From Pseudooceanicola endophyticus (GTDB taxonomy: Bacteria > Pseudomonadota > Alphaproteobacteria > Rhodobacterales > Rhodobacteraceae): DNA of 64,000 bases. Location of the stretch: NCBI RefSeq assembly GCF_018760365.1, contig NZ_JAHIAB010000010.1, positions 1 to 64,000 on the forward strand. The letters run 5' to 3'. The position numbers were made by a program, and so were the translations under genes. Below the pieces are notes generated by a model, which worked only from the letters and a program-made list of their open reading frames with translations, searched no databases and was not told where the DNA came from. Positions 33,453-52,884 of this stretch are shown here, in pieces (position 1 is the stretch's first letter; the number at the start of each line of letters is the position of its first letter).

Positions 33453-33926
33453 CTATTCTCCTTCGTGATCACCTGATCCATCATCAGAGGACACCGAGAT
33501 TTCGACCACGCGAGAGCCTGGGCGCACAAACTCGTAACCCCCTGCGCCACCGTTGTTTATCTGCACCGCGACAGCCGGTCCGGCGGGCTCGCGCCTGAGA
33601 AACTCGACCATTCTCGCTCTCACCTGCTTGTTGTCTGTCTGGTCGAGGAGTTCCCTTGCGACCTCCAGGGCGCGGGCTTCATGGACCTTTTTCATGGTCT
33701 CGATGCGCTGGACGTATTGGGCTTTGATGTCGTCGAAGAGGGCTTGGACGTGCGGTTGCTTGCGGGCCTTGTGGATGCCTGCCTCCGACATCCCTGCTTC
33801 GCGGGCACAGTCGGCCCACGGCTTCGCCGTCTCTACCTTGAGCTCTAGTGCTTTACGCACCTTGGGGCTTATGCGGCGCTTACGGGGGGCGGGGGCGCCC
33901 TCTTGTGCTGTCTGTAGCTGGGTCAT
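33453..33926 (-). CDS. putative terminase small subunit
   Basis: A 157-aa protein starting MTQLQTAQEGAPAPRKRR. It has a basic N terminus and a helix-turn-helix (KPWADCAREAGMSEAGIHKA) near residues 35-55, then a helical oligomerisation region (ETMKKVHEARALEVARELL) and a flexible acidic tail. This layout and its place at the head of the late operon match small terminase subunits, which bind the packaging site. I rejected 33 upstream residues of Pro-rich frame. No clear ribosome site is visible. Confidence 0.6.
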   Translation of the reverse strand: MTQLQTAQEGAPAPRKRRISPKVRKALELKVETAKPWADCAREAGMSEAGIHKARKQPHVQALFDDIKAQYVQRIETMKKVHEARALEVARELLDQTDNKQVRARMVEFLRREPAGPAVAVQINNGGAGGYEFVRPGSRVVEISVSSDDGSGDHEGE

Positions 33927-34059
33927 GTGTGGACGGTACGAGAGGGGGGAGGGAGGGGGGAATGCACGGTGGGGGAGCGTGGGGCCCTCTGTGTCGGGTG
34001 CTGGGCTGGGGCTAGGGCCGGGCACAAGCCAGAGGGGAACATTTTTTTACATCCCCTCA

Positions 34060-34088
34060 TTGACGGCGGAAAGCGAATCTCCTACCTT
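34060..34088 (+). promoter_or_regulatory. putative promoter of the rightward small-gene region
   Basis: TTGACG (34060-34065), 17-nt spacer, TACCTT (34083-34088). The spacing is ideal and the -35 box differs from consensus at one position. It lies directly before two hairpin elements and the first small gene at 34168. Confidence 0.5.
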
Positions 34089-34095
34089 CTGTCTT

Positions 34096-34115
34096 GTCGG
34101 GACCGAAACCCTGAC
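34096..34115 (+). promoter_or_regulatory. CCGAAAC-loop hairpin 1a
   Basis: Stem GTCGGG/CCTGAC (one G-T pair) with loop ACCGAAAC. It is the first of two tandem copies before the gene at 34168. Confidence 0.65.
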
Positions 34116-34120
34116 CCACC

Positions 34121-34140
34121 GCCCGGACCGAAACCCGGGC
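34121..34140 (+). promoter_or_regulatory. CCGAAAC-loop hairpin 1b
   Basis: Perfect stem GCCCGG/CCGGGC with loop ACCGAAAC, followed by CCCACAAAGA at 34143-34152, 25 nt before the ATG at 34168. Confidence 0.75.
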
Positions 34141-34167
34141 TTCCCACAAAGAACCGAGGATCCACAG

Positions 34168-34344
34168 ATGACCATCGCCAAGACCATCGAGACCGCCCGC
34201 CAGCACCTGACCAACGGCAATGCGGGCGCCTATGCCCGGATCATGTCGGGCGCCGTGCGGGCCGCCGCCTCCGACCGGGCCGCCAACGCCTACCGCGCCG
34301 CGATGAAGGCCGACGGGTTCGACGCTCTCGCCGCCCAGGCCTGA
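34168..34344 (+). CDS. small hypothetical phage protein
   Basis: A 58-aa Ala-rich helical protein (MTIAKTIETARQHLTNGNAG). A GAGGA ribosome site precedes the ATG, and the CCGAAAC hairpin and CCCACAAAGA box stand upstream. After its stop a two-tier stem-loop (34348-34383: outer ACTGG/CCAGT, inner CGGCC/GGCCG) separates it from the next leader. Function unknown. Confidence 0.6.
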   Translation: MTIAKTIETARQHLTNGNAGAYARIMSGAVRAAASDRAANAYRAAMKADGFDALAAQA

Positions 34345-34347
34345 CCT

Positions 34348-34383
34348 ACTGGTGACGGCCTCCCCCCGGGGGCCGCATCCAGT
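34348..34383 (+). promoter_or_regulatory. two-tier stem-loop after the 58-aa gene
   Basis: Outer stem ACTGG (34348-34352)/CCAGT (34379-34383) encloses an inner 8-bp stem (34356-34363/34368-34375). It starts 4 nt after the stop codon. It may act as a terminator or 3'-end stabiliser, although no T-tract follows. Confidence 0.5.
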
Positions 34384-34395
34384 GCGCCAGGCACT

Positions 34396-34417
34396 CCCTT
34401 GGTCCGAAACCCAGGGG
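34396..34417 (+). promoter_or_regulatory. CCGAAAC-loop hairpin 2
   Basis: Seven-pair stem CCCTTGG/CCAGGGG (one T-G) with loop TCCGAAAC, followed by CCCACAGAGA at 34421-34430, 25 nt before the ATG at 34446. Confidence 0.75.
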
Positions 34418-34445
34418 CTTCCCACAGAGAGAAGGGCTTTCCCCC

Positions 34446-34571
34446 ATGTTTATCCTGCAAGCGCAGATTGATGGCGCTTGGGTCGATCAGCACGACGACC
34501 CGCGCCCCTATGCTCAGATCAACCTGTTCGCCGCCCCCCGGGGCGCGTGGACCCGGCTTCGCCGCGTTTGA
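34446..34571 (+). CDS. 41-aa hypothetical phage protein
   Basis: A 41-aa frame starting MFILQAQIDGAWVDQHDD and ending TRLRRV. It begins exactly where the repeated leader (hairpin 2, CCCACAGAGA, purine-rich ribosome site) predicts a start, and the next two-tier stem-loop begins one base after its stop. That context, rather than its sequence, is the evidence that it is real. No function assigned. Confidence 0.55.
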   Translation: MFILQAQIDGAWVDQHDDPRPYAQINLFAAPRGAWTRLRRV

Positions 34572-34612
34572 CCTACCGCAGCGCCGCCCCGGGCGGGCGG
34601 CGTCACCGTAGG
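34572..34612 (+). promoter_or_regulatory. two-tier stem-loop after the 41-aa gene
   Basis: Outer stem CCTAC (34572-34576)/GTAGG (34608-34612) encloses inner CGCCGCCC (34582-34589)/GGGCGGCG (34595-34602). It starts immediately after the TGA. Confidence 0.5.
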
Positions 34613-34624
34613 CCAGAGCCTGCG

Positions 34625-34644
34625 CCCCGGTCCGAAACCCGGGG
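34625..34644 (+). promoter_or_regulatory. CCGAAAC-loop hairpin 3
   Basis: Perfect stem CCCCGG/CCGGGG with loop TCCGAAAC, followed by ACCACAGAGA at 34650-34659, 24 nt before the ATG at 34674. Confidence 0.75.
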
Positions 34645-34673
34645 TTCACACCACAGAGACAAGGAACCACCCC

Positions 34674-35555
34674 ATGAGCTTCCATCGTTACATGCGCGGA
34701 ATGAGCAACGGCGGCGTCATCTCGGCCCGCACCGGCGAAGTCCTGAGCAATGAGGAACTGCAGAAGGTCGTGCCGTCGATCTTCGCGACCGAGGCCCACG
34801 AAAGCCGCTCTGCGCGCTTCGCGCCGATCCCCACCGCTTCCGTGCTGGACGGCCTGCGGGCGGAAGGCTTCGACCCGTTCTTCGCGCAGCAGGCCCGTAC
34901 CCGCATCGAGGGCAAGCAGGAGTTCACGAAGCACATGCTGCGCCTGCGTCACCGCAGCCTGGCACGGGCCAATGGCGAGGCCTTCGAAGTCATCCTGGTG
35001 AATGCCAATGACGGCACCAGCTCCTACCAGATGCTGCCCGGGTTCTTCCGCTTCGTCTGCGCCAACGGCCTGATGGTCGGCGACACCTTCGAAGAGGTGA
35101 AGGTCCGCCATACCGGCGACGCGGTGCATGAGGTCATCGAGGGCGCTTATCGGGTGTTGGAAGAGGCGCCGCGCGTCACGGCGCAGGTAGACGCCTTCAA
35201 GGGCCTGACGCTGAACCAGGACGAACAGCGGGCCTTTGCGGAGGCCGCGCATATCCTGCGCTTCCCCACCGCGCACCCCGAGCAGATCGAAGAGGCCAAG
35301 CCCGCGCCGATCACCGCTGAAATGCTCCTCCGGCCCCGCCGGCGCGATGACCTGGCCGAAAATCTTTGGACCACCTTCAACGTGGTTCAGGAAAACGTCA
35401 TCCGTGGCGGCCAACGCAGCCGGGTCCGCGACGCCAACAACCAGATCCGCAACGTGTCGTCCCGCGCGGTGAAGGGCATCGACCAGAACAAGGCGCTGAA
35501 CCGGGCCCTCTGGACGCTGGCCGAACGCATGACCGAGTTGAAGGGCGCGGCCTGA
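34674..35555 (+). CDS. DUF932-family phage/plasmid protein
   Basis: A 293-aa protein of the DUF932 type found on phages and plasmids. Recognisable parts are the N terminus with TEAHESRSARFAPIPTASVL, RIEGKQEFTKHMLRLRHR near residue 75, and PGFFRFVCANGLMVGDTFEE near 120-140, the usual hallmark. Biochemical function is not established. It is the largest gene of the small-gene region and carries leader hairpin 3 upstream. Confidence 0.8.
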   Translation: MSFHRYMRGMSNGGVISARTGEVLSNEELQKVVPSIFATEAHESRSARFAPIPTASVLDGLRAEGFDPFFAQQARTRIEGKQEFTKHMLRLRHRSLARANGEAFEVILVNANDGTSSYQMLPGFFRFVCANGLMVGDTFEEVKVRHTGDAVHEVIEGAYRVLEEAPRVTAQVDAFKGLTLNQDEQRAFAEAAHILRFPTAHPEQIEEAKPAPITAEMLLRPRRRDDLAENLWTTFNVVQENVIRGGQRSRVRDANNQIRNVSSRAVKGIDQNKALNRALWTLAERMTELKGAA

Positions 35556-35596
35556 CCCACCGGTGACCGCCCCCACGCGGGGCGGCATCCCGTGGG
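35556..35596 (+). promoter_or_regulatory. two-tier stem-loop after the DUF932 gene
   Basis: Outer stem CCCAC (35556-35560)/GTGGG (35592-35596) encloses inner CCGCCCC (35567-35573)/GGGGCGG (35579-35585). It starts right after the TGA, as in the other spacers. Confidence 0.5.
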
Positions 35597-35608
35597 CCAT
35601 GCCTACGA

Positions 35609-35628
35609 CGCCCGACCGAAACCGGACG
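35609..35628 (+). promoter_or_regulatory. CCGAAAC-loop hairpin 4
   Basis: Stem CGCCCG/CGGACG (one mismatch) with loop ACCGAAAC, followed by CCCACAGAGA at 35637-35646, 24 nt before the ATG at 35661. Confidence 0.65.
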
Positions 35629-35660
35629 AGATCTATCCCACAGAGACAGGAGGACGACCC

Positions 35661-35834
35661 ATGCCCGTGACCCGCTACGATTATGCGACCGGCTACCGAT
35701 CGCGCGAGGCGGCCCAGGAGAGCCTTGAGGACGGATTTGCCTCTGGCGACGTGATGGAAGGGGAGCGCCCCCGCATTGAGCCCTATCGCAACGCGCGCGG
35801 CCTGCGCCGCTACAAGATCACGCTGGAGAGCTGA
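35661..35834 (+). CDS. small hypothetical phage protein
   Basis: A 57-aa protein (MPVTRYDYATGYRSREAAQE, ending YKITLES) with an AGGAGG ribosome site. It reads like a small alpha/beta domain. It shares an operon with the methyltransferase-like gene, which starts 4 nt after its stop and has no hairpin leader of its own. Confidence 0.6.
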   Translation: MPVTRYDYATGYRSREAAQESLEDGFASGDVMEGERPRIEPYRNARGLRRYKITLES

Positions 35835-35837
35835 TCC

Positions 35838-36521
35838 ATGCAGCTGGCTTTCTCCTTCATCGCAGAGCGGCCCATGCGCGTCCTGGTCGCGTGCGAATGC
35901 TCCGGCGTGGTGCGCCGCGCCTTCGACCGCCTGGGGCACGACGCCTGGTCCTGCGACCTGAAGCCCGCCGAGGACCGGAGCAACCGGCACCTGGTCTGCG
36001 ACGTGCGCGACGTTCTGGCCGACGGCTGGGACCTCATGGCGGTGATGCACCCGCCCTGCACCAGGCTCTGCAACAGCGGCGTGCGCTGGCTGACCACGCC
36101 GCCCCCAGGGCGGACCCTGGCCGAAATGTGGCAGGAGCTGGACGACGGCGCGGCGCTGTTCTCCGACTGCTGGAACGCGCCAATTCCCCGGATCGCGGTC
36201 GAGAACCCCGTGATGCACCGCCATGCGAAAGAGCGCATCCGGGGTTATGAGCCCTTCGCGCAAACTGTGCAGCCCTGGCATTTCGGGACCGAGGAGGACG
36301 GGCCGGACAATGAGCGCAAGCGCACCTGCTTCTGGCTGAAGGGCCTGCCGCCCCTGAAGGCAACCGGCACCCTGGACGGCACCACGGCGCGCGACAGCGT
36401 CCACAAGGCCAGCCCGGGCGCCAAGCGCGCCACCGAGCGCAGCCGGTTCTTTCCCGGGATCGCCGACGCCATGGCGGCACAGTGGGGCGGCTACGCCCAT
36501 AGCGCCGCGCTGGCGGCCTGA
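35838..36521 (+). CDS. DNA cytosine methyltransferase-like protein
   Basis: A 227-aa protein related to phage proteins usually annotated as cytosine-5 methyltransferases. MRVLVACECSGVVRRAFDRL near the N terminus resembles SAM-binding motif I, and MHPPCTRLCNSGVRWL (about 70-85) contains the PPC of the catalytic motif IV. AVENPVMHRHAKERI (about 118-132) resembles the ENV region. The usual C-terminal target-recognition domain is missing or very reduced, so a nucleotide-modifying or other role is also possible. Two starts are usable (35838 and the ATG at 35874). Confidence 0.6.
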   Translation: MQLAFSFIAERPMRVLVACECSGVVRRAFDRLGHDAWSCDLKPAEDRSNRHLVCDVRDVLADGWDLMAVMHPPCTRLCNSGVRWLTTPPPGRTLAEMWQELDDGAALFSDCWNAPIPRIAVENPVMHRHAKERIRGYEPFAQTVQPWHFGTEEDGPDNERKRTCFWLKGLPPLKATGTLDGTTARDSVHKASPGAKRATERSRFFPGIADAMAAQWGGYAHSAALAA

Positions 36522-36560
36522 CGCATCGCCTGCGGCCCTGCGGGGCCCCAGCACCATGCG
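36522..36560 (+). promoter_or_regulatory. two-tier stem-loop after the methyltransferase-like gene
   Basis: Outer stem CGCAT (36522-36526)/ATGCG (36556-36560) encloses a 5-bp inner stem (36534-36538/36543-36547). It starts right after the TGA. Confidence 0.45.
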
Positions 36561-36570
36561 CCAGCATGAC

Positions 36571-36590
36571 CAGGCCTCCGAAACGGCCTG
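36571..36590 (+). promoter_or_regulatory. CCGAAAC-loop hairpin 5
   Basis: Perfect stem CAGGCC/GGCCTG with loop TCCGAAAC, followed by CCCACAGAGA at 36597-36606, 23 nt before the ATG at 36620. Confidence 0.75.
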
Positions 36591-36619
36591 ATAGACCCCA
36601 CAGAGAGAGGGAATTTCCC

Positions 36620-37030
36620 ATGTCAAACTTCTCGGAACACCAGGCAGAGCAGGACGCGCTGACGGCGCGCTATGATGATCTGTCGCCCATTGGAAACCTG
36701 GCCCATACCCTCGGCGCCGGTATCAGCACCTGCGAGGACGAGGCCGCCGCGCTGGCCTATTGCGCAGAGCGTCAAGACAAAATGGATGCCGCCGAACTGC
36801 GGATCTTCGACGAAGCCCGCGCCGATGCAAACGAGGATACGGCGCGGGCCATGCTCAGCGAACAGGAGCTGGCCACCGTTCTCGCTGCTCTTCGGTTCTA
36901 CCAGGAGAAGGGCATGGGGGACCCGGAGAACCGGAGCGACGCCATCCACGAAATTGCCACCGACTGCGGCAGCTGCATCAGCCTCGACGCGAGCGGAATT
37001 GATGATCTTTGCGAGAAGCTGAACTCCTGA
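36620..37030 (+). CDS. hypothetical acidic phage protein
   Basis: A 136-aa acidic helical protein starting MSNFSEHQAEQDALTARY. The start is set by the leader (hairpin 5 and the box) and a purine-rich AGAGGGAA site; 18 more residues of open frame lie inside the leader and are rejected. No family recognised. Confidence 0.6.
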   Translation: MSNFSEHQAEQDALTARYDDLSPIGNLAHTLGAGISTCEDEAAALAYCAERQDKMDAAELRIFDEARADANEDTARAMLSEQELATVLAALRFYQEKGMGDPENRSDAIHEIATDCGSCISLDASGIDDLCEKLNS

Positions 37031-37041
37031 CGCACCGGCAG

Positions 37042-37080
37042 AGGGGGCGCGCCGGTTATGCCGGCAAAGCTGCGCCCCCT
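37042..37080 (+). promoter_or_regulatory. two-tier stem-loop after the 136-aa gene
   Basis: Outer 9-bp stem AGGGGGCGC (37042-37050)/GCGCCCCCT (37072-37080) encloses inner GCCGG (37051-37055)/CCGGC (37061-37065). It precedes hairpin 6 by only 4 nt. Confidence 0.55.
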
Positions 37081-37084
37081 TCCC

Positions 37085-37104
37085 CGTGCGACCGAAACCG
37101 CACG
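37085..37104 (+). promoter_or_regulatory. CCGAAAC-loop hairpin 6
   Basis: Perfect stem CGTGCG/CGCACG with loop ACCGAAAC, followed by the variant box TCCACAACGA at 37105-37114, 23 nt before the ATG at 37128. Confidence 0.75.
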
Positions 37105-37127
37105 TCCACAACGAAAGGAACCCTCCC

Positions 37128-37367
37128 ATGATCAAGCTCTATCTCTTCGCGCGTGGCCGCTGGTCGCCCTGCCACTATGTCGCCTCTATCACCGCGGCGC
37201 CGGCGCTGTCCGTCCTGCTGTGCCAGGAGCCCCGCCAGCCCGGGCCGGAGGTGACGCTGGATGCCCTGCGCAATCTGCTGCCCGAGGCCTGCGCCTCCAT
37301 CCCCGAGGTGACCGGCTTCCGCATCGAGCAAGGTGATTTCGTCCACGAGGAGGACCTGGCGGCATGA
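37128..37367 (+). CDS. small hypothetical phage protein
   Basis: A 79-aa protein starting MIKLYLFARGRWSPCHYV, with a likely beta-hairpin N terminus and a helical remainder. AAAGGAA precedes the start. No family recognised. The start fits the hairpin-box-ATG spacing of its neighbours. Confidence 0.6.
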   Translation: MIKLYLFARGRWSPCHYVASITAAPALSVLLCQEPRQPGPEVTLDALRNLLPEACASIPEVTGFRIEQGDFVHEEDLAA

Positions 37368-37442
37368 GTGGCCGGGGTACTGGTGGCGGCAACCTTCTGG
37401 CGGCAATGTGCGAGCAACCTTAGTCCATAGGAGGCAGCACCC

Positions 37443-37697
37443 ATGCTAGACACCCCCGCCGTTCGGAAAATGTCTGACGACGAACTTGCCCAGGCAGCGA
37501 GCAATTGTGCCGAGAACAGTATGAACCGCTGGAAAACCGATGCTGAGTTCAAGCGGCGCGAAATGCTGCTGCAACGCGACGTCGCGAAGGCACAGATCAG
37601 CGCGACCTGGTGGACCCGGGCATCGGCGATTGCTGTGGCGGTGTCGGTCGTTGTCACTGCACTGGGCATTCTCATTGAGAGGTTCGCCGGGCAGTGA
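37443..37697 (+). CDS. small membrane protein with C-terminal anchor
   Basis: An 84-aa protein: a helical soluble part (DELAQAASNCAENSMNRW, FKRREMLLQRDVAKAQ) and a C-terminal membrane segment (about residues 60-79, ASAIAVAVSVVVTALGILI). AGGAGG precedes the ATG. This gene lacks a CCGAAAC leader. A tail-anchored phage protein of unknown role. Confidence 0.6.
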   Translation: MLDTPAVRKMSDDELAQAASNCAENSMNRWKTDAEFKRREMLLQRDVAKAQISATWWTRASAIAVAVSVVVTALGILIERFAGQ

Positions 37698-37701
37698 TAG
37701 T

Positions 37702-37745
37702 GCGCCCTTGCCATCCCCTTGCGGGGCCGAAACAGGCAAGGGCGC
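37702..37745 (+). promoter_or_regulatory. variant leader: stem-loop containing GCCGAAAC (copy 7)
   Basis: A perfect 11-bp outer stem (37702-37712/37735-37745) encloses CCCC/GGGG, and GCCGAAAC (37726-37733) lies partly in the internal loop on the 3' side rather than in a terminal octaloop. CCCACAAAGA follows at 37750-37759. Here the stop-codon stem-loop and the leader element appear fused. Confidence 0.5.
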
Positions 37746-37785
37746 GTGTCCCACAAAGAAAGGACGAGGGGGAACCTAGATCCCA

Positions 37786-38097
37786 ATGGAAACTTTTGCA
37801 ATGAGAACCGCTCAGGAGATCAGGAGCTTGGACCCGGAGGCGCGCGGCGCGCTGCTGAAGGACCTGGCCGCCGAGGTGTTCTCCGGTCCCGCCCTCGTCA
37901 GCCGCCTCACCGAGGCCCTGGACATCACCCGGCAGAGCTGGGCGCGCTGGCTGCGAGAGCCCGACAAGATCCCGGCCTGGCCGATCCTGCTCTTGCAGGA
38001 ATGGGCCTTCCGGAAGCGGCTTAGCGCGGATCTCGGCCGCCTGCCTTTCGACGCCGATCCCGCTCGTTCTGGAACCGACGCCCCCGACGTCCCGTAA
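37786..38097 (+). CDS. small helical protein, possible DNA-binding regulator
   Basis: A 103-aa protein. Residues about 38-65 (RLTEALDITRQSWARWLREP) resemble a helix-turn-helix like those of phage Cro or YdaS proteins. An internal ATG at 37801 is an alternative start. The gene converges with, and overlaps by 77 nt, the leftward XRE gene at 38021-38524, so transcription of one could interfere with the other. Confidence 0.5.
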   Translation: METFAMRTAQEIRSLDPEARGALLKDLAAEVFSGPALVSRLTEALDITRQSWARWLREPDKIPAWPILLLQEWAFRKRLSADLGRLPFDADPARSGTDAPDVP

Positions 38098-38524
38098 GGC
38101 TGCGGGTGTCGCAGATCATGCGCATGGTGACCGGCGGAAGCTCTGCCGGTCTCAGCACCACGTCGAAGCCCAGCGTGTTCGCCCAGATCACGAAGGTCTC
38201 CAGGTTCGGCACCTTGTCGCTGTCGTCCCGCTCGATCTTCGCCAGGTGATCCTTCGTCAGGCCGGCGGCGTCTTCCACCTCGGCAATGTTCAGGCGCAGA
38301 TCTTCCCGGCGCTCCCGCAGGAACCGGCGGGCCGCGTCGAAGGTGGTGGCACGGAAATCCATCTGCACCCGGTCATTGATGCGCGGCGGCACGCTGCCGG
38401 AACTGCGGATCCTCGCACGCATGCCGCAGCCCGCCTCGGGGCACCGCACGATGCAGGAGCCCTCTTCCACCGCCTCGATGACCCAGCCCTGTTCTTGCGC
38501 GAGCTTGAGGAATTTCTGATCCAT
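38021..38524 (-). CDS. XRE-family regulator with N-terminal Cys motif
   Basis: A 167-aa protein. It begins with a small domain containing CIVRCPEAGC near residues 24-33, followed by a classic HTH_3 segment (LNIAEVEDAAGLTKDHLAKI) near 95-120, and a basic tail. It should bind DNA. It is the last gene of the leftward replication operon rather than part of the immunity switch, so it may control late or replication genes. Its 3' end overlaps a convergent gene. Confidence 0.7.
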   Translation of the reverse strand: MDQKFLKLAQEQGWVIEAVEEGSCIVRCPEAGCGMRARIRSSGSVPPRINDRVQMDFRATTFDAARRFLRERREDLRLNIAEVEDAAGLTKDHLAKIERDDSDKVPNLETFVIWANTLGFDVVLRPAELPPVTMRMICDTRSLTGRRGRRFQNERDRRRKAGGRDPR

Positions 38525-38542
38525 GCGGTTTCCTTTCTCGGC

Positions 38543-38704
38543 TCAGTCCCAGACGTAATCGGCGTAGGACCGATAGACCATCACGCCCTCGCCGGTCTCG
38601 GGGTTCACGGCCCACCAGCGGCGCGGCGGATCCCCCTCACCCTGCCAGCACTGCCACGGCTCCAGCTTGTCAGGCTGGTACTTGCTCAGGTCTTCGTCGG
38701 TCAC
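38543..38704 (-). CDS. 53-aa hypothetical phage protein
   Basis: A small protein starting VTDEDLSKYQPDKLEPWQ and ending YADYVWD. The GTG start overlaps the TGA of the helicase gene (GTGA), supporting coupled expression. Rich in Trp, Tyr and acidic residues; no family recognised. Confidence 0.55.
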   Translation of the reverse strand: MTDEDLSKYQPDKLEPWQCWQGEGDPPRRWWAVNPETGEGVMVYRSYADYVWD

Positions 38705-40095
38705 AGCGCCATCTCCTCTTGCGCGGCCAGGTCCCAGAACCGCGCCGTCGGCAGGTGGCACCCGACCATGGCCGTGGCCAGCCGCCCGTGCCGGTTCTTC
38801 CGCACGATCAGCTCGACCTTGTTCTTGCAGGCGGCCATGTCCGCTTCCCAGTCCAGCTGCGCATCGACGCTGACGCTGCCGTTCTTGTCCAGCTTGGGGC
38901 CCTCGCGCTCCAGCCAGTATTCCTCACGGTGGCAGAAGATCACCTGGTCGGCGTCGTTCTCCAGCTGGCCGGTCTCCTTGATATCCGAGAGCATCGGGCG
39001 CTTGTCGTCGCGATAGCCGATATCGCGCGAGAGCTGCACGAGGCCGATCACCGGCACGCCCAGCATGCCCGCCATGTGCTTCATCTGGATGGAGACCTCG
39101 GTCATCATCTCGTAGCGCTTGCCGCCCATGGCCCGGGCCAGCTGCACGTAGTCGATCACCACCAGCGACAGCGGCGCGCCGGGCCCGAATTCCCGGTTGA
39201 TGCGCCGGCAGGCCGCATGGATCGCCGGCACGTCCCGCACATGCTTCGGCACGATGCGCAGCGCGCCCTGGGCCGCCTGCAGCGCTCCTTCGGACCAGGC
39301 GCGGAAATCCTTCTCGGACATGTTGCCGGCATCACGCAGCGCGCTGTAGGGCACCCGGGAGAACGACGATGCGATGCGGGTGGCCAGCTCGCGGTGCGTC
39401 ATCTCCAGGGACACGAAGGCAACGCCCTGGCCGCCCCGGAAGGCGGCGTTCTTCGCGATCTCAAGCGCCACGCTGGTTTTCCCCATCGAGGTGGCCCCAC
39501 CAAGCAGGCAGAAGTCTCCCGGCGCCAGCCCTTTCAGGATTTCGTCCAGCGCGCGGATCCCGGTCTTGAAGAACGTCCGCTTGCCCTCGTAGACCTCCCG
39601 CGCGTCGGCGACAGCCTCCGTCATCGCCTTCAGCAGCGACACCGAGCTTTCCTCGTCTGCGCTCTCGGGCAGCGTCTGGAGCGCATGCATTAGGCGCAGC
39701 GCGACCTCCTGGGGCTCTGCCCCACCGGACAGCCCCTCCTGGGCTTGGAACGCCATGTCCGACAGCAGGCGCCGGCTGGCATCCGTCACCACGGCCCGGG
39801 CGTAGTGGCGGACCGAATGCGGCCCCACCCCGGCGCCGGCCAGCCGGGCCAGATAGGACGGTCCGCCCAGTTCCTTCAGCCCCTCGTCATTGGCCAGGGC
39901 CATCTTCATGGTCACCGGGCTGGCCAGGTGCCCCTTGGCGACCCGCCCCGTGATCCCCTCGAAGATCCGACGGTGCACCGGGTCGCAGAAATGCTCGGCC
40001 GTCAGGAAATCGCCCACCTGGTCCAGGCTGTCGTTGTTGACCAGCAGCGAGCCCAGCAGGACCTGCTCTGCCTCTGGCGTGTAAAATTCCGTCAT
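38701..40095 (-). CDS. replicative DNA helicase (DnaB family)
   Basis: A 464-aa DnaB-type helicase. The N-terminal DnaB domain covers about 1-140 (PEAEQVLLGSLLVNNDSLDQ), and the RecA-like motor follows. Walker A is GATSMGKTS at 200-208, VSLEMTHRELATRI is the conserved H1a region, LVVIDYVQL is Walker B, and IGLVQLSRDI is motif H3. It should unwind the phage fork, loaded by the initiator-like protein encoded just upstream. It ATGA-overlaps the preceding 52-aa gene. Confidence 0.9.
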   Translation of the reverse strand: MTEFYTPEAEQVLLGSLLVNNDSLDQVGDFLTAEHFCDPVHRRIFEGITGRVAKGHLASPVTMKMALANDEGLKELGGPSYLARLAGAGVGPHSVRHYARAVVTDASRRLLSDMAFQAQEGLSGGAEPQEVALRLMHALQTLPESADEESSVSLLKAMTEAVADAREVYEGKRTFFKTGIRALDEILKGLAPGDFCLLGGATSMGKTSVALEIAKNAAFRGGQGVAFVSLEMTHRELATRIASSFSRVPYSALRDAGNMSEKDFRAWSEGALQAAQGALRIVPKHVRDVPAIHAACRRINREFGPGAPLSLVVIDYVQLARAMGGKRYEMMTEVSIQMKHMAGMLGVPVIGLVQLSRDIGYRDDKRPMLSDIKETGQLENDADQVIFCHREEYWLEREGPKLDKNGSVSVDAQLDWEADMAACKNKVELIVRKNRHGRLATAMVGCHLPTARFWDLAAQEEMAL

Positions 40096-40250
40096 TTGCG
40101 GTTGCCCTTGTTCTTTGTGGCTTTGGCGATCAGGGCGCGCAGCAGGCGCGTCTCGATCTGGATTTTCTCGCCCGCGTCCCCGGGGACCTGTTTCGAAAGC
40201 CCCTCGATGACGTTCAGGTAGGTGTCGATCCGGGCGAGAAGGTCGGTCAT
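40092..40250 (-). CDS. 52-aa hypothetical protein between initiator and helicase genes
   Basis: A short helical protein starting MTDLLARIDTYLNVIEGL with a Lys-rich end (KATKNKGNRK). Both its start and its stop overlap the neighbouring genes in ATGA-type junctions, good evidence for a real gene in a coupled operon. Its place suggests a role in replication, perhaps as a helicase accessory, but there is no sequence proof. Confidence 0.6.
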   Translation of the reverse strand: MTDLLARIDTYLNVIEGLSKQVPGDAGEKIQIETRLLRALIAKATKNKGNRK

Positions 40251-41089
40251 CGCACCACCGGCTGCCAGCTCGGCGGGTCGAAGCGGCGCGCGCGATCGGC
40301 GCGGCTCACCTGCTGGGGATCTGCCATGCCCTTCAGCACGTCGTCCTCCCAGCGATCATCGTTCAGCCAGCCCTGCGGATGCTTGGCCGAGGGGCGGAAC
40401 TCTCCCGCCCGGGGCGGCGAGGACAGCCAGCTGGCGTAGAGGCGGGCGCCGCGGATGATCACCTCGGCCGGGGCCCTCTTCACCGCCTTGGCGAATGCTT
40501 TCCGCGCTGCTGGCTTGCCGGCCTTCTTCGGATAGGCCTGCCAGAATTCTTCGAAATGCTGATCCTCGGTCGGCGCCGGTGGCGCCTTATCCCCCTGGTC
40601 ATCCCCTGCGAACAGATCACGCTCCCCCTGAGGGGGTTGGGGGGTATTGGATGGTTCAATGGATGGTTCAATGGATGGTTTGGGTGAATCTGGTTCACCC
40701 CTACCCGTGAACGTGGTTCGCCCCTCCCCCTGAACCAGATTCACCCCGTGAACCTCGTTCACCCCTTTTTTGCGAGGCCGGCCACCGCCTTTTGTCGCGA
40801 TCTCGGGCAGCTGTTTCAGCACGTCGATGTTGATCCGGTATTCGACCGTATAGCCGTGCTCGCAGGGCCTCTGACCCACCTGCGAAACCAGCGCGTCAGC
40901 TTCCAGCTCGCCGATCACCTTCTGGACAGAACGCTTGCTCAGCTCCAGGTGCGCGGCAGCCGTCGCTTTGCTCATCCAGATCCCGCTTCCGTCATCGCTG
41001 GCGCGATCCGCCAGGTACAAAAGGACGGCCTTCTTTGTCGCCGAGCCGACGACCCGCCATTGGGCAAGGGTGTGGACGAAGTTGCTCAT
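40247..41089 (-). CDS. phage replication initiator-like protein
   Basis: A 280-aa protein. Residues 1-85 form a winged-helix domain (SKATAAAHLELSKRSVQKVI), the middle is low-complexity (PSIEPSIEPSNTP), and the C terminus (HFEEFWQAYPKKAGKPAARK, ending near DDRWEDDVLKG) matches the common C-terminal module of lambda O-like and Siphovirus replication proteins. It should bind the origin and recruit the DnaB-type helicase encoded downstream. Its own gene contains four iterons (40686-40766), as in lambda O. Confidence 0.75.
   Translation of the reverse strand: MSNFVHTLAQWRVVGSATKKAVLLYLADRASDDGSGIWMSKATAAAHLELSKRSVQKVIGELEADALVSQVGQRPCEHGYTVEYRINIDVLKQLPEIATKGGGRPRKKGVNEVHGVNLVQGEGRTTFTGRGEPDSPKPSIEPSIEPSNTPQPPQGERDLFAGDDQGDKAPPAPTEDQHFEEFWQAYPKKAGKPAARKAFAKAVKRAPAEVIIRGARLYASWLSSPPRAGEFRPSAKHPQGWLNDDRWEDDVLKGMADPQQVSRADRARRFDPPSWQPVVR
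40650..40682. repeat. 12-bp tandem repeat inside the initiator gene
   Basis: GGATGGTTCAAT occurs at 40650-40661 and 40662-40673 with a partial third copy to 40682. It is in frame and encodes the repeated Ile-Glu-Pro-Ser of the linker. It directly adjoins the iteron block. Confidence 0.7.
40686..40766. other. putative phage origin: four iterons in the initiator gene
   Basis: TGAANNNNNTTCRCCCC occurs four times in the same orientation, at 40686, 40709, 40732 and 40750 (17 bp each). The TGAA/TTCA core of each is an inverted repeat, except that the second reads TTCG. The first two steps are 23 bp and the last 18 bp. The 23-bp steps change the reading frame, so the repeats encode different residues; the conservation is therefore at DNA level. 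This is the expected form of an initiator-binding origin. Confidence 0.7.
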
Positions 41090-41640
41090 TTACCTGCTCT
41101 TTCAGTGAAATGTTCGGCCCCGAAGAGGCCTCCTGTGGGCACGCTCTGCGCCGCCCGAAGCGTCGCGCAGCCGAAATCCCAGATCGCCAAGGCATCGGCC
41201 TCGTCATCCGAGCGCGGCCGCCAGCCCAGCTGGTTGCAGCGACCGATGACCCGCTGCTTGATCGCATCCCGTGCCGCGCGCGCGTCAAGGCCGGGGAAGT
41301 CCTTCGCCACGAGATGCTTCCCGAGGAAATGCTTCCGGACGGACTGGATGCGCGCCTCACGCACCGGGATGCCCATATCTGCCACCGTGCCCGTGACGCA
41401 GGCCGCCAGCCCGATCAGGAAGGCGCTGGCCTTGGGGCCACCGATGGCCGCCTCGTAGAAGACATGATCCGGCTCGTATTTCTCCAGGAGGTGACGGGTC
41501 ACCTGCATGGCCTTGGCAAACCGGGCCGCTTCGGACTTGCCCCGTTTGCCAAGATCAATCGTTGTGGCCCGCGGGGTTTTCCCCGCGAGCCCGAAGGCGA
41601 CCCCCGTAGAGGTCGCGATATCGAAGGCCATCACCCTCAC
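41086..41640 (-). CDS. RuvC-like Holliday junction resolvase
   Basis: A 184-aa protein of the RNase H-like resolvase family common in phages. The acidic residues are in place: Asp7 in FDIATSTGVAFG, Glu near 63 in VFYEAAIGG, and DDEADALAIWDFG near 151 with the paired acidic residues. It should cleave branched DNA formed in replication and recombination before packaging. It overlaps the initiator gene by 4 nt and the upstream gene by 4 nt. Confidence 0.8.
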   Translation of the reverse strand: MRVMAFDIATSTGVAFGLAGKTPRATTIDLGKRGKSEAARFAKAMQVTRHLLEKYEPDHVFYEAAIGGPKASAFLIGLAACVTGTVADMGIPVREARIQSVRKHFLGKHLVAKDFPGLDARAARDAIKQRVIGRCNQLGWRPRSDDEADALAIWDFGCATLRAAQSVPTGGLFGAEHFTERAGK

Positions 41641-42170
41641 TTCTTCGCGCCGCCGCGCTTGCCCTTGATCGGCGTGACCTTCGTATCCTCGGTCTCCAGC
41701 TCGGCCAGGTGCGCCTCGAATTCGGCGGCCTCTTCGGCCAGCTCGGCATCTCCGGCGGGCACTTCGTCGCCCATCGGGATCTCGATCTCGTCGTCATCCC
41801 CTTCGCCCCAATCGGGATCCGGATCGAGGTCTTCGCCGTCCTCCTCGAAGTCGGCCGGATCGCCCAGGCCCAGCTCGCCGGTGCCCTGGCCCTGCACATG
41901 CGCCTCGACCATCGGCAGGCCCATCTTCAGCGACCGGATCACGTCCATCGCCTTCTGCTGGCCGTTCTTCTTCGGCAGCTTTTTCACGATGCTCTTCAGC
42001 CAGGAGAAGGCCTGTCCGTTCATCCCGGTCTCGTTCAGGAACTCGGTCAGCTTCGCGGCGCTCTCGCCAGCATCGCTCTGGCGGGCGTATTCCTCCCCCG
42101 AGCGCGCTTGGATCTGGCCAAGCAGTTCGTCGTGACCGAACTCGGGTTCGGAGTTAATCGGATCTTCCAT
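41637..42170 (-). CDS. acidic hypothetical protein, first gene of the replication operon
   Basis: A 177-aa protein. The first 90 residues are helical (LTEFLNETGMNGQAFSWLKS, then IVKKLPKKNGQQKAMDVIRS), the rest is very acidic (EEDGEDLDPDPDWGEGDDDE) with a short basic end. Acidic tails are common in single-strand-binding and DNA-mimic proteins, but no fold is recognised. Confidence 0.6.
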   Translation of the reverse strand: MEDPINSEPEFGHDELLGQIQARSGEEYARQSDAGESAAKLTEFLNETGMNGQAFSWLKSIVKKLPKKNGQQKAMDVIRSLKMGLPMVEAHVQGQGTGELGLGDPADFEEDGEDLDPDPDWGEGDDDEIEIPMGDEVPAGDAELAEEAAEFEAHLAELETEDTKVTPIKGKRGGAKK

Positions 42171-42357
42171 CTGGTGCTCCTTTCAGCTGATGGGTGTCGG
42201 ATCTCGCTCCGACGGGCGCCTGGTGACGACATCCAGTTCTCTTCACCGACCACGGCTGAATGTCGTCGTCGCAGCCTCAGCGAGCGGCTGAGAAAGCCCA
42301 GCGGTCGGTATTGCATTTTTCCGGGGTTCTGATTTCCTCGACCCAGGAGGACCGGGG

Positions 42358-42843
42358 ATGAAAAGAATCGTTCTGGCATTGGGAATTTCGGCGGCTGCCG
42401 CTGCACACGCCGAGGACTCCAGAAAGATCGGAGCTTGGAACTACTTGCCAGATCAGCAGGGCGAAATTTGGGAAACCATGGCTTCTGAAATACCCGCCTG
42501 CACAGGGGCTTTGGACCCCTCGGCTGTATTCGCCTTCACTTGCGAAAAGGGTGATCTCAATGTGGTAATCTCCACGAACTGCAAGATTCCAGCATCCATA
42601 GGAGATCGAATCCCAGTAACGATCGGATCTGATAACCTGAGCAAGAAGCGCCAATATAATATGACGATCACTGCCGAAAACACGTTCACTTCTGGAGGTG
42701 GATTTGGCCAACTGATCGCACAGCGGCTGGCAACCACCCATTATGCCCATGTTTCTGTTGGAGGTGCTGAGATGACCTTCAATTTCTACGGCCTGGACCG
42801 CGTCATTCTCGAGACAGACAACAGCTGCCTCCATTTCTACTGA
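42358..42843 (+). CDS. secreted/periplasmic protein, probable lysogenic-conversion gene
   Basis: A 161-aa protein with a clear signal peptide (MKRIVLALGISAAAAAHA, cleavage likely before EDS). The mature part has four Cys residues and ends in NSCLHFY. It is transcribed against the flanking leftward genes, and its base composition is lower in G+C than its neighbours, both typical of a moron inserted next to the immunity region. AGGAGG precedes the ATG. No family is recognised; it could modify the envelope of the lysogen. Confidence 0.7.
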   Translation: MKRIVLALGISAAAAAHAEDSRKIGAWNYLPDQQGEIWETMASEIPACTGALDPSAVFAFTCEKGDLNVVISTNCKIPASIGDRIPVTIGSDNLSKKRQYNMTITAENTFTSGGGFGQLIAQRLATTHYAHVSVGGAEMTFNFYGLDRVILETDNSCLHFY

Positions 42844-42872
42844 CGACGATCCATACCCCACCACCTGACACC

Positions 42873-43064
42873 TCAGGCATTCGACAAGTAGGACATGATC
42901 TTGCCTCTGGTGGACGAGCGAAGTTCGCGTCCGCGCTTGAGCGTCGTGACCAGCGCGGTATCGTTCAGCGCCAGGCGCCCGAAGTCCGTCAGGGTGATGC
43001 CCTTCGTCTCGCAGAACTTTTCGATCTTCTCGATGAGATCTTGCTCAGGGATGGTATCGAACAT
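42873..43064 (-). CDS. Cro-like small DNA-binding protein
   Basis: A 63-aa protein starting MFDTIPEQDLIEKIEKFC. GITLTDFGRLALNDTALVTT resembles the helix-turn-helix of XRE/Cro proteins. It is divergent from the CI-like gene across an 87-bp spacer with three operators. I set the start at the internal ATG with an AGAGGG ribosome site, since the upstream part of the open frame crosses the operators. Confidence 0.65.
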   Translation of the reverse strand: MFDTIPEQDLIEKIEKFCETKGITLTDFGRLALNDTALVTTLKRGRELRSSTRGKIMSYLSNA

Positions 43065-43091
43065 GACGCCCTCTCGCTGGAAGTTTCCAGT

Positions 43092-43121
43092 TTTGTACGC
43101 TGGGGACTTCCAATTGGTCAA
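43092..43121 (-). promoter_or_regulatory. leftward promoter of the Cro-like gene
   Basis: On the minus strand TTGACC (43121-43116), an 18-nt spacer and TACAAA (43097-43092). The middle operator lies in the spacer, so a bound repressor would block it. Confidence 0.55.
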
Positions 43122-43143
43122 GGCGCTTCTAAGTTGGTAAAAA
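43114..43143 (+). promoter_or_regulatory. rightward promoter of the CI-like gene
   Basis: TTGGTC (43114-43119), an 18-nt spacer and TAAAAA (43138-43143). The start of transcription would fall within a few bases of the ATG at 43152, suggesting a leaderless message, as for lambda cI from PRM. The third operator covers the -10 box. Confidence 0.4.
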
Positions 43144-43151
43144 CCAACGTT

Positions 43152-43478
43152 ATGGAACAACCTGATATGTCTGCAATTTTAGCAACCAACCTGCGGGCTC
43201 AGATGGAGCGCCGTAGCCTCAGCATGGCACAGCTGAGCAGGAAGGCAGGCACCAACGATACCGCCGTCTACGACATTCTGAAGCAGAGGACCCGCAGCCC
43301 GAAGCTCGACACGATTGCGAAGTTGGCGGACGCACTAGAGGTACGTGTCATTGACCTGCTGACCTCTGGAGATCGTAGTGCTGCCGAGCAAGAGATCCTG
43401 GCCATTTTTGAGCGGCTGAGCCCTCAGGACCAACAGCGACTTCTCCTCACTGCAAGGGCGTGGAAATCGACCTCCTAG
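43152..43478 (+). CDS. XRE-family phage repressor (CI-like)
   Basis: A 108-aa protein with an HTH_3 domain near residues 13-70 (RSLSMAQLSRKAGTNDTAVY, then KLDTIAKLADALEVRVIDLL) and a short helical C terminus. There is no S24 peptidase domain, so induction would not be by RecA-stimulated self-cleavage. It should bind the TGG-N6-CCA sites and keep the lytic operons off. No ribosome site precedes the ATG; it may be read leaderless, or start at the ATG at 43167. Confidence 0.75.
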   Translation: MEQPDMSAILATNLRAQMERRSLSMAQLSRKAGTNDTAVYDILKQRTRSPKLDTIAKLADALEVRVIDLLTSGDRSAAEQEILAIFERLSPQDQQRLLLTARAWKSTS

Positions 43479-43705
43479 GGATCTTTCACACCCCGAACAC
43501 AGCTGATGCAGCAGACCAGCACACAGATCGAGAATGACGCCGCCCGCCCGCTGCCCACCCGATGCTCGGACTCAGCGGGCGAAGCAATTCTCCCGAGAAC
43601 ACTTGCTAACCCAACAATATGAGCGTCAGAGAGCCCCGACAGGAGCGCCCTCATCTCTCGTATCCGATCTTCTTCAGATGAATTTTCCAGCATCACCAGA
43701 GGCAT
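43475..43705 (-). CDS. possible small protein convergent with the repressor gene
   Basis: A 76-aa frame starting MPLVMLENSSEEDRIREM. The first half looks helical (LSGLSDAHIVGLASVLGRI), the end has a hydrophobic Cys-rich segment (FSICVLVCCISCV). It overlaps the repressor gene by 4 nt at the 3' ends. There is no clear ribosome site, so it is uncertain; operator cluster 2 lies just upstream of it. Confidence 0.35.
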   Translation of the reverse strand: MPLVMLENSSEEDRIREMRALLSGLSDAHIVGLASVLGRIASPAESEHRVGSGRAASFSICVLVCCISCVRGVKDP

Positions 43706-43717
43706 AGCACTGCCGAC

Positions 43718-43791
43718 TGGAAGTTTCCAATTTTTTTCTTGATCACTGGAAATTACCAACGCATATTCACCCCACAAACTGGAAATAACCA
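43718..43791. promoter_or_regulatory. operator cluster 2 (three TGG-N6-CCA sites)
   Basis: TGGAAGTTTCCA (43718-43729), TGGAAATTACCA (43747-43758) and TGGAAATAACCA (43780-43791). The first is identical to a site in cluster 1. Together with the promoter at 43739-43767 they resemble the second operator region of a lambda-like switch. Confidence 0.75.
43739..43767 (+). promoter_or_regulatory. rightward early promoter
   Basis: TTGATC (43739-43744), a 17-nt spacer and CATATT (43762-43767). The second operator of cluster 2 fills the spacer. It should drive the operon starting at 43803. Confidence 0.55.
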
Positions 43792-43802
43792 GCGAGTCGG
43801 GT

Positions 43803-44117
43803 ATGAAAATGCAGAATGGCAGCACGCATCCAGCACCTTTTGCACAGGAGGTCTTCAGCGTGGACCCGTGGACCGTTTCCCGCGACGTGATGCAGGAACG
43901 CGGCCACCGGAAGCTGAATTTCTTCGCAACGCACCAGGAGCGGCCCGAGATCATCGACCTCGACGTGAGCCCCTATGAGGAGCTGTCCGTCGAGACCTTC
44001 AAACGCATGGTGGATCTGGGCTTCCCGTCGGGCGGCAACAGCCCCCTGCGGGCGGACCAGATCGAGCTGATGTGGTGGCGGAAGTTCGGCATCAAGCCGG
44101 ATCAGCCCGCCGCCTGA
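43803..44117 (+). CDS. hypothetical first gene of the rightward early operon
   Basis: A 104-aa protein starting MKMQNGSTHPAPFAQEVF. Segments such as WTVSRDVMQERGHRKLNFFA and FKRMVDLGFPSGG suggest a small helical fold. It follows the operator-controlled promoter directly, the place where phages often encode an anti-repressor or an early regulator. No family recognised. Confidence 0.55.
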   Translation: MKMQNGSTHPAPFAQEVFSVDPWTVSRDVMQERGHRKLNFFATHQERPEIIDLDVSPYEELSVETFKRMVDLGFPSGGNSPLRADQIELMWWRKFGIKPDQPAA

Positions 44118-44599
44118 CCCGAATAGCGCGCTGTCCCACGAAGTCCCGAGCGCGCTATGCCCCGGCCGGTTCCATCCCCAAGCGCCGGCCGGGGCCCCAA
44201 TACCCCCGCACCCTTTGTCTGCCTCGTAAGCGGGGGCCAGCTGGGGCGCAGGAGGCGCGTATCTGCCCGGCGCCGAATGTGCCCCAGCACCAGCACTCAC
44301 CGAGCGGTCGACCGAAACCGACCGCACAGACCCGGGCGCCCGCGGCAGACGCGATGGCGGGCGCCCTCCCTTTCCGTCGGGCGCTTTCCCGAGACCGTCG
44401 AGCACCGATCCCGCCAGCGCCAGAGAAGGCCCGCAGGGGCACGGCGCCAACCAAGGAGGACACCATGAAGTAAGCGCGATGCCCTGGCCGGAGGCGAAAG
44501 ACCCGGCGCGCCAGAGTGGCGTTCGACTTTGGTTGGCCGGCAGTCGCGGCATAGGGCTGCCGGCATTCCCAAGACGAACCTGACGAGGAGAACTGACCA
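44118..44599 (+). ncRNA. structured gene-free region, candidate non-coding RNA
   Basis: There is no convincing gene in these 480 nt although they are within an active operon. Four strong hairpins follow in tandem: 44123-44158 (10-bp stem), 44159-44195 (11-bp stem), 44304-44325 (7-bp stem with ACCGAAAC loop) and 44334-44366 (10-bp stem). Near the end a strong AAGGAGG precedes ATG-AAG-TAA at 44465-44473, a two-codon minigene. The region could be a long leader, a small RNA or an antitermination site. Confidence 0.45.
44304..44325 (+). promoter_or_regulatory. CCGAAAC-loop hairpin 8
   Basis: Perfect 7-bp stem GCGGTCG/CGACCGC with loop ACCGAAAC. It is 6.5 kb away from the other copies and in the same orientation. 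The box that follows (CGCACAGA) overlaps the stem, and no start codon lies at the usual distance. Confidence 0.7.
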
Positions 44600-45226: not shown

Positions 45227-45238
45227 GGAGAAACCACC

Positions 45239-45505
45239 ATGTCCCTTACGCTCACGAGCCACATGCATGACTGCAAGAGCATCGGCGAGGCCATCGCCAA
45301 TGCGAACGCGCTGCTGGTCAAGACGCAGACCGAGCTTCAGCACACCCGCGAGGTGCTGGAGATGCTGCGGGAATACCAGCACCCGAAGCTGGTCATCCAG
45401 ACGACCTACAAGCACTGGCTGACCGAAGAGAAGGCCCTGCAGCCCGTCAAACTGATCGACGCCCAGATCGCCCGCATCAACACTCTGCTGGGGGATCGGG
45501 CATGA
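45239..45505 (+). CDS. hypothetical helical protein
   Basis: An 88-aa protein predicted to be nearly all helix (KTQTELQHTREVLEMLREY). GAGGAGA lies upstream of the ATG. Its stop overlaps the next start (ATGA). No family recognised. Confidence 0.55.
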   Translation: MSLTLTSHMHDCKSIGEAIANANALLVKTQTELQHTREVLEMLREYQHPKLVIQTTYKHWLTEEKALQPVKLIDAQIARINTLLGDRA

Positions 45506-51567: not shown

Positions 51568-51600
51568 TCCGCATGGTGCTCTAAGACGAAAGTGAACCTC

Positions 51601-52839: not shown

Positions 52840-52847
52840 GACCACCG

Positions 52848-52884
52848 ACACAACGGCGACACAACGCGCCCTGATGGCACAACG
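52848..52884. promoter_or_regulatory. putative prophage integrase arm-type sites, right end
   Basis: ACACAACG at 52848-52855 and 52859-52866 and GCACAACG at 52877-52884, all in the same orientation, between the integrase gene and the core. Related sites occur inverted at the left end (8680-8700). Confidence 0.6.

Follow-up and report, generated by a model that had tools for sequence, protein, structure and literature searches.

What are the small hairpins that recur, with one loop on differing stems, in front of the small genes of a prophage of Pseudooceanicola endophyticus? In the window, by which we mean the whole stretch of 64,000 nt analysed here, part of contig 2 of a 5.2 Mb genome, eight plus-strand octaloops of the sequence (A/T)CCGAAAC stand on stems of 5–7 bp, and a ninth, rearranged copy carries the same heptamer at 37727 (Table 1). 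The original prediction had located these hairpins correctly, since all eight octaloop copies and the rearranged copy could be verified. It had also reported a single mismatched stem, which exists but is located in the copy at 35609 (CGCCCG/CGGACG), fifth in map order, and not in the fourth, and stems that all remain complementary, which is correct with the reservation that those at 34096 and 34396 pair throughout only if a G-U pair is allowed.

The motif WCCGAAAC occurs 11 times in the window, where 2.69 occurrences are expected and none of 100 shuffles reached 11. On both strands together there are 15 occurrences of CCGAAAC, namely the eight hairpins, the rearranged copy and six stemless sites; seven of the 15 have at least six contiguous pairs around an 8-nt loop, six have no stem of three or more pairs with such a loop, and the site at 35615 (hairpin 5) has three pairs, a mismatch and two further pairs. 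Across the eight copies 89.3% of 56 cells are paired and all seven pairs have changed on both sides, giving a covariation score of 0.985 compared with 0.226 ± 0.083 in shuffles (reached by 0/500), and pairing fell to at most 54% when the partner column was slid by one. These data clearly show that the conserved loop on covarying stems is a genuine hairpin family. A covariance model built from the eight hairpins recovered all of them from the bacterium's own genome at E ≤ 0.03 (scoring covered 150 of the 1526 first-look candidates), and we rejected a host-wide element, as there was no further copy at E below 0.78, the value of the next match. In addition, we performed a de novo control that demanded strict pairing around loops of 8 nt, in which none of 238 viral loci (copies of the studied prophages, L067 and L290, being left out) had three or more distinct-stem hairpins sharing a loop, compared with four in the window and a maximum of two in 20 shuffles of the 64 kb. 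With G-U pairs allowed, CCGAAAC has six distinct stems in the window and other 8-nt loops, its own antisense aside, have at most three; for loops of 6–7 nt under the same rule, chance families of up to six arise in this GC-rich window. No Rfam (release 15) family fell on the hairpins, the two weak matches in 33500–45500 at E ≤ 5 lying elsewhere.

A search of 22 genomes of the genus with the covariance model, which the original prediction had recommended, led to two related prophages with the same leaders. We call the phage of the window W and these relatives B and C; they are likely to belong to a metagenome-assembled genome (MAG, JAAFAB010000011.1) and Oceanicola sp. S124 (NZ_AFPM01000017.1) respectively. 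B and C were also the only matches to the 79-aa protein of W in a scan of 84,980 species genomes, and a profile of this protein matched only the own genome among 394 genomes of the family. B has six hairpins and C has five, each together with a rearranged copy, and the arrangement is syntenic, the distal copy included. All copies found in B and C read CCGGAAC, with an A ahead of it in the standard hairpins, so that base 4 of the heptamer is A in 9/9 copies of W and G in 7/7 copies of B and 6/6 of C, rearranged ones included. Each of the five orthologous sites (35609, 36571, 37085, the rearranged copy and 44304) shows one heptamer change, at the same position every time; were a single random change to fall among seven positions at each site, the chance of all five agreeing would be 7 × (1/7)^5, or approximately 4 in 10,000, a figure that serves as a guide only.

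The stems, meanwhile, have kept their pairing. Between W and B/C there are compensatory changes from A-U to G-C at 36571 and from U-A to C-G at 44304, and at 35609 the C-A mismatch of W corresponds to C-G in both relatives. W, B and C together have 14 distinct hairpins, in which 33 cells have changed on both sides and the covariation score is 0.852, compared with 0.199 ± 0.053 in shuffles (0/500). The covariation within W, the compensatory changes and the uniform loop difference bear out the proposal of selection on a folded hairpin. The absence of further copies from related phages, or stems there that no longer pair, had been named as grounds for giving up that proposal; the related phages in fact have more copies, with stems still paired. 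The loop, by contrast, had been called invariant, which holds inside W but not among its relatives. The box that follows the hairpin also differs between the lineages, being of the CCACARAGA type (CCACA(R)(A/C)GA) in 7/7 gene leaders of W, with CCACAACGA counted, and CCACAGC(R)A in 6/6 gene leaders of B and 5/5 of C; the distal copies of B and C have the boxes CCACAGCAG and CCACAGCTC.

A third loop type was found in a viral contig. A terminase profile was used to search viral contigs, and among the best 80 of 584 relatives the loop search found clustered copies only in L323, which we call phage D. Its loops are of the (C)CGGAAAC type and stand before three plus-strand genes (in the orientation of the window), one of them in the rearranged form, the inner stem of which is CCTC/GAGG in D where it is CCCC/GGGG in W. 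A fourth hairpin precedes a divergent gene on the other strand; the hairpins of D thus occupy both strands, each being sense to its own downstream gene. A pattern search for the D type gave seven contigs, five of them in the family (L412, which is D itself, L411, L415, L416 and L417), and the other two had no such hairpins. The shared loop switch in B and C and the third loop type in D, together with the retention of leaders described below, go beyond what the original prediction had seen. Loop-coded hairpin leaders of this kind appear so far only in related phages, and by comparison of their sequences the code differs as a unit between lineages.

Copying or gene conversion cannot explain the switch, because it would carry the stems along, and the stems differ. 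A loop that has changed alike at all copies while the stems differ can be explained by one co-evolving factor, and we propose, with moderate confidence, that the hairpins are operators in sense RNA and that a single RNA-binding factor encoded by the phage reads them and sets the expression of the following cistrons. In this model the hairpins would act in cis in the 5′ leaders of the phage mRNAs, the stem presenting the loop, with any pairing sequence allowed, and the loop heptamer serving as the recognition code; the factor would read the loop at all copies and set translation or mRNA fate of the cistrons behind them, which would join the small-gene operon and the recombination genes in one regulon. 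Because one factor would read all copies, the code would drift as a unit between lineages, from CCGAAAC to CCGGAAC and CCGGAAAC. We infer RNA as the active form, a protein as the reader and translation as the level of control. A phage-encoded binding factor had already been put forward in the original prediction and is still the best explanation, and we found nothing in support of the replication priming suggested beside it. The switch could also be accounted for by a single change in a phage small RNA that pairs with the loop as a kissing hairpin, one mutation redirecting all targets. We judge this very unlikely, as the complement of the heptamer, GTTTCGG, occurs outside the hairpins at only two places in the stretch of W searched (8–54 kb), both of them coding and without flanking stems.

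Six copies end their loop 29–38 nt before a start codon, with the box between, as the original prediction of a constant place in the leader implied; the others deviate, since the loop at 34102, which belongs to the upstream half of a hairpin pair, is 58 nt and the rearranged copy 52 nt from the start codon, and the copy at 44304 has no start codon close downstream. The 3′ foot of the hairpin lies 23–32 nt before the start codon, which is approximately the upstream edge of the ribosome footprint, so that a bound factor would sit beside the start site and not on it. The leaders, in intergenic gaps of approximately 100 nt, are ordered as a GC-rich hairpin, in some cases a second hairpin (an extra one in 3/5 folded gaps), the loop-conserved hairpin, the box, a ribosome-binding stretch rich in purines and, last, the start codon. 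The GC-rich hairpin, often accompanied by one with a GCCA-like loop, is seen upstream of the conserved hairpin at 34345–34446, 34572–34674, 35556–35661 and 36522–36620, and is also retained, together with a GGGCCAGA sequence, in a further relative, phage E (L324), which has no conserved hairpin. In W there is no hairpin at 37443. A box with the lineage-specific difference, again without a hairpin, precedes dnaB (window 40120, minus strand, and the same place in B and C); it was not counted because it lies inside a small conserved open reading frame (ORF).

At the first genes the hairpins lie close to promoter-like sites. Hairpin 1 begins 7 nt past the −10 hexamer of a putative W promoter, and in D the divergent promoters pass the promoter scan, with hairpins starting 8 (plus) and 10 (minus) nt past their −10 hexamers, which places all three near the predicted 5′ end of the mRNA. 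The scan of 33900–37800 in W itself returned no promoter-like site. In L323 the spacers of the two promoters (7007–7035, plus; 6973–6945, minus) have similar palindrome-like sequences (GGAAAC..GTTTCC), possibly a repressor operator with a half-site that resembles the RNA loop of D.

Small hairpins near transcript 5′ ends recall the antitermination sites of phage λ, where a left and a right boxB, each with a pentaloop and with boxA upstream, lie in transcription leaders ahead of terminators and are bound by the arginine-rich peptide of N, the specificity of which differs between phages. If the copies worked in this way, a factor would load on to polymerase at the leader and terminators would be passed. 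The small hairpin with a purine-containing loop, the arginine-rich tail of a candidate protein, found in 7/8 hairpin phages (see below), the copies near predicted transcript ends and the distal copy upstream of the recombination genes would all fit such sites. In contrast, recurrence before successive cistrons at a narrow distance from the start codon is something that loading would not need, the conserved box is downstream of the hairpin where boxA is upstream of boxB, and a consensus scan of both strands of 33900–37800 gave no terminator-like site (2.2 on average in shuffles). By the same scan the hairpins there are not intrinsic terminators, which are GC hairpins followed by a T-run, the copy at 44304 lying outside the stretch scanned. 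W also differs from λ in having many sites, 7–9-nt loops, a place before start codons and an XRE-type candidate, and the nut arrangement was not recognized, although no boxA scan was made. Antitermination, which the original prediction had listed, is accordingly less favoured and in our view unlikely. The available part of one study describes loop-specific boxB contacts by the N proteins of λ and P22, with two P22 sites that differ at six stem positions (PMC6023938).

Several findings weigh against RNA operators with a common reader. In predicted leader folds six of the eight copies form, as does the rearranged copy in the manner described, but those at 35609 and 37085 fold differently, and with z-scores of −0.6 to −3.0 the energies of the leaders are unremarkable to moderate. 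In B and C the distal stem lacks two outer pairs, leaving five. The sample is evolutionarily small, as the C hairpins are identical with their B counterparts, the D-type contigs repeat stems, and only three loop types from a few related phages are at hand. In phage E, which we also read by eye, an operon at the same place has upstream hairpins without the conserved one. As for the strand, three G-U pairs on plus compared with two on minus are not decisive. On the minus strand the loops contain UUCG (W) or UCCG (B, C and D), and a slightly or clearly better fold is obtained there for 12 of 17 hairpins. Finally, 17 of 294 other genomes of the family match the covariance model at E ≤ 0.01, where the nominal number is about three; the excess, roughly fivefold, rests on rough E-values.

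The last two findings would suit hairpins that have no reader and either stabilize or process mRNA or owe their loop to a favoured UNCG loop on the antisense strand, and the first hairpins are indeed near predicted mRNA 5′ ends. Yet the invariant flanks of the loop would give a U-G closing pair and not the stable C-G pair, a loop kept for stability is not expected to differ at all copies together, terminator-like sites are lacking on either strand of 33900–37800, and the copies are sense to the following gene, on both strands in D. We consider this explanation improbable and favour sense RNA because each copy with a nearby gene is sense to it. Matches at the looser limit of E ≤ 0.5 occur in 136 of 295 family genomes. 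Among the matches listed, 29 loci (L146–L174) were inspected, and 20 have an uninterrupted hairpin of at least five pairs with a NCCGAAAC loop; none of the 29 has two hairpins and none has the box. A family-wide element was rejected for this reason, those loci being single hairpins without a box, and a pair of weak matches in G142:C216 was fetched and is not this system. Five of the loci (L149, L151, L152, L155 and L156) are single GC-rich hairpins with a GCCGAAAC loop and no box, possibly terminators on the other strand (loop UUUCGG). As the loop occurs elsewhere, it is clustering, box, placement and the shared switch that distinguish the system, and not the loop alone.

Comparison of the related phages indicates that leaders are kept while the genes that follow are exchanged. 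At 35556 the leader shares 88% identity with that of B (104 nt) and 92% with that of C (86 nt), and the genes behind it differ in all three phages. Similarly, D-type contigs have three different genes behind the first leader and four behind the divergent leader, and different genes follow the distal hairpin in B and C. Such retention may be a route by which foreign genes enter phage regulation. Leaders that are sites of cassette exchange between relatives might instead suggest hairpins that work in single-stranded DNA form, either as promoters or in replication or recombination. We regard this as very unlikely, since orientation and distance track start codons, on both strands in D, and since no RNA polymerase or relaxase family was found among 30 window proteins searched, which are part of the prophage genes. 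The features of the window are collected in Table 1.

Table 1. Hairpins, boxes, genes and other features of the window, in map order
Feature	Position	Strand	Details
Putative promoter	34060–34088	+	TTGACG-17-TACCTT; by eye, 8/12 consensus bases, below promoter-scan threshold
Hairpin 1	34096–34115	+	GTCGGG ACCGAAAC CCTGAC
Hairpin 2	34121–34140	+	GCCCGG ACCGAAAC CCGGGC
Box	34144–34152	+	CCACAAAGA
58-aa ORF	34168–34344	+	No family found
Hairpin 3	34396–34417	+	CCCTTGG TCCGAAAC CCAGGGG
Box	34422–34430	+	CCACAGAGA
41-aa ORF	34446–34571	+	No convincing family
Hairpin 4	34625–34644	+	CCCCGG TCCGAAAC CCGGGG
Box	34651–34659	+	CCACAGAGA
DUF932 protein	34674–35555	+	PF06067, phrog_12094
Hairpin 5	35609–35628	+	CGCCCG ACCGAAAC CGGACG; one C-A mismatch, C-G in B and C
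Box	35638–35646	+	CCACAGAGA
57-aa ORF	35661–35834	+	Other genes behind orthologous leader in B and C
DNA methyltransferase	35838–36521	+	phrog_757; starts 3 nt past preceding ORF, without own hairpin
Hairpin 6	36571–36590	+	CAGGCC TCCGAAAC GGCCTG
Box	36598–36606	+	CCACAGAGA
136-aa ORF	36620–37030	+	Partial homologues near orthologous leaders in B, C and D
Hairpin 7	37085–37104	+	CGTGCG ACCGAAAC CGCACG
Box	37106–37114	+	CCACAACGA
79-aa ORF	37128–37367	+	80% identity in B and C
Rearranged copy	37702–37745	+	Outer stem GCGCCCTTGCC/GGCAAGGGCGC, inner hairpin CCCC-TTGC-GGGG, then CCGAAAC 37727–37733
Box	37751–37759	+	CCACAAAGA
103-aa ORF	37786–38097	+	Behind rearranged copy in W, B and C
XRE/HTH_3 protein, 167 aa	38021–38524	−	Arginine-rich tail (codons 38024–38101); weak reader candidate
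Hairpin 8 (distal)	44304–44325	+	GCGGTCG ACCGAAAC CGACCGC; upstream of recombination genes; counterpart in B and C
Integrase gene	51592–52839		Adjoins tRNA
tRNA	52913–52985		Sole Rfam match in window at gathering scores

The ORF behind the rearranged copy in D showed no tblastn similarity to the 103-aa ORF of W. A search for relatives with the 136-aa protein gave one partial match, in G244, and no such hairpins were found in 18 kb there. As candidates for the reader, window ORFs were compared by tblastn with B, C, D and the hairpin-less E. Present in the first three and not in E were, besides tail genes, the non-structural ORFs for the 136-aa, 346-aa and ASCH-like proteins and that at 47755–48987. 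The ASCH-like protein (50597–51259), found in W, B, C and D and in one of four further hairpin records, some of them possibly fragments, was rejected as reader since its similarity (67% between W and C, 58% between B and C) does not track the loop type.

The XRE-type protein encoded at 38021–38524 is a weak lead. Its tail is the most arginine-rich 20-residue stretch of 44 candidate ORFs (nine arginines, the next having seven) and resembles the arginine-rich motifs of the λ N type. It reads RRGRRFQNERDRRRK in W, RRGRRFENERRRR in B and C, ARQRRFRLERERRQQR in D, L415 and L416, and ARQRRFRLERERRRQR in L411, i.e. seven of the eight hairpin phages have an arginine-rich tail, and that of E, MRRHHFRVHGARRDPQDE, is weak. 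Against this candidate, the hairpin-less phage E also has the XRE protein; in W, B and C the last part of the opposite ORF overlaps the tail codons (D has a 28-nt gap there); and AlphaFold places the tail within a long helix at low confidence (mean predicted local distance difference test score, pLDDT, 65.9; tail approximately 45–56). In addition, the 44,655-base record of L417, which is possibly incomplete, has D-type hairpins, and no tailed XRE protein was found in it, its single distant homologue (E 8.6e-16) being tailless. On the reverse strand of L417, beyond the rearranged copy, other ORFs stand at the place of the XRE gene and the hairpin leaders are retained. A profile of the XRE protein found one further distant homologue (26% identity), also tailless, in 394 family genomes, and there were no hairpins in the 19.9 kb around it. 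It is conceivable, though doubtful, that an XRE DNA-binding protein with an N-like tail also reads RNA, through the mutually orthogonal lineage codes CCGAAAC, CCGGAAC and CCGGAAAC; we lowered our estimate of this dual role because the L417 record has hairpins without the tailed protein. If it were true, coinfecting relatives would avoid cross-regulation and new cassettes would join the regulon behind a ready-made leader. Our confidence in RNA operators with a common reader is unaffected by L417, as that mechanism does not rest on the XRE candidate.

Among known systems, a loop that stays fixed on stems that vary, present in the leaders of many mRNAs and bound by one protein, is familiar from CsrA/RsmE sites and iron-responsive elements. 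Here the loop sequence is unrelated and the clustered system is found in one phage family only; GGA, which marks CsrA/RsmE sites, is absent from the W loop WCCGAAAC but is contained in the loops of B, C and D. Well-known pairs of hairpin and binder, such as boxB/N and the MS2 operator, are few. The present set looks like a natural series of RNA hairpin codes evolving in one phage family, and thus a test case for a joint change of specificity in an RNA-binding regulator and more than five dispersed targets; if read by a protein, it would add a new hairpin/binder pair with three natural loop types for comparison.

The closest analogue is that named in the original prediction, the start-associated and extended start-associated sequences (SAS and ESAS) of cluster K mycobacteriophages, and the comparison is a good one, with placement alike and sequences unrelated (PMC3203893 and PMC12699233, in the parts available). 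According to these, a short conserved sequence lies at the translation starts of many non-structural genes (PMC3203893), with an inverted repeat just upstream in a subset, the repeat consensus differing between subclusters (PMC3203893, PMC12699233). Placement at the start codon and hairpin sequences specific to a subcluster or lineage are thus common to both, whereas the 17-bp inverted repeats of the mycobacteriophages have conserved arms and a variable spacer, and here varying complementary arms carry a conserved loop. The 13-bp SAS as defined in the available part of PMC3203893, GGGATAGGAGCCC, was not seen at the gene starts studied here, which have a CCACARAGA-like or CCACAGCRA box. We found no description of the motif in open-licence papers, and for Oceanicola S124 the accessible portion of PMC5488378 mentions only a Mu-like remnant.

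The hairpin system lies within a prophage at approximately 9.4 to 53 kb of the window, because similarity to the related prophages covers the same stretch, with gaps. The integrase gene beside the tRNA (51592–52985) marks a likely attachment site. The small-gene operon (34168–38097, plus) has terminase and structural genes (minus) on one side and, on the other, a replication operon (minus) encoding a DnaB-like helicase, a replication initiator and a RuvC-like resolvase, beyond which are a cI-like gene and recombination genes including an exonuclease (plus).

We also considered DUF932 genes as carriers of the hairpin and rejected this, since the plasmid DUF932 leader differs and has no hairpin of this kind (four regions of 387 matching plasmid records). 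The plasmid DUF932 genes of Cereibacter/Haematobacter (L122 at approximately 5003, L123 at 5005 and L125 at 5002) do have a conserved upstream leader of approximately 130 nt, which looks structured, with an outer stem CATCCGCC/GGCGGATG and inner hairpins, and is a candidate RNA in its own right.

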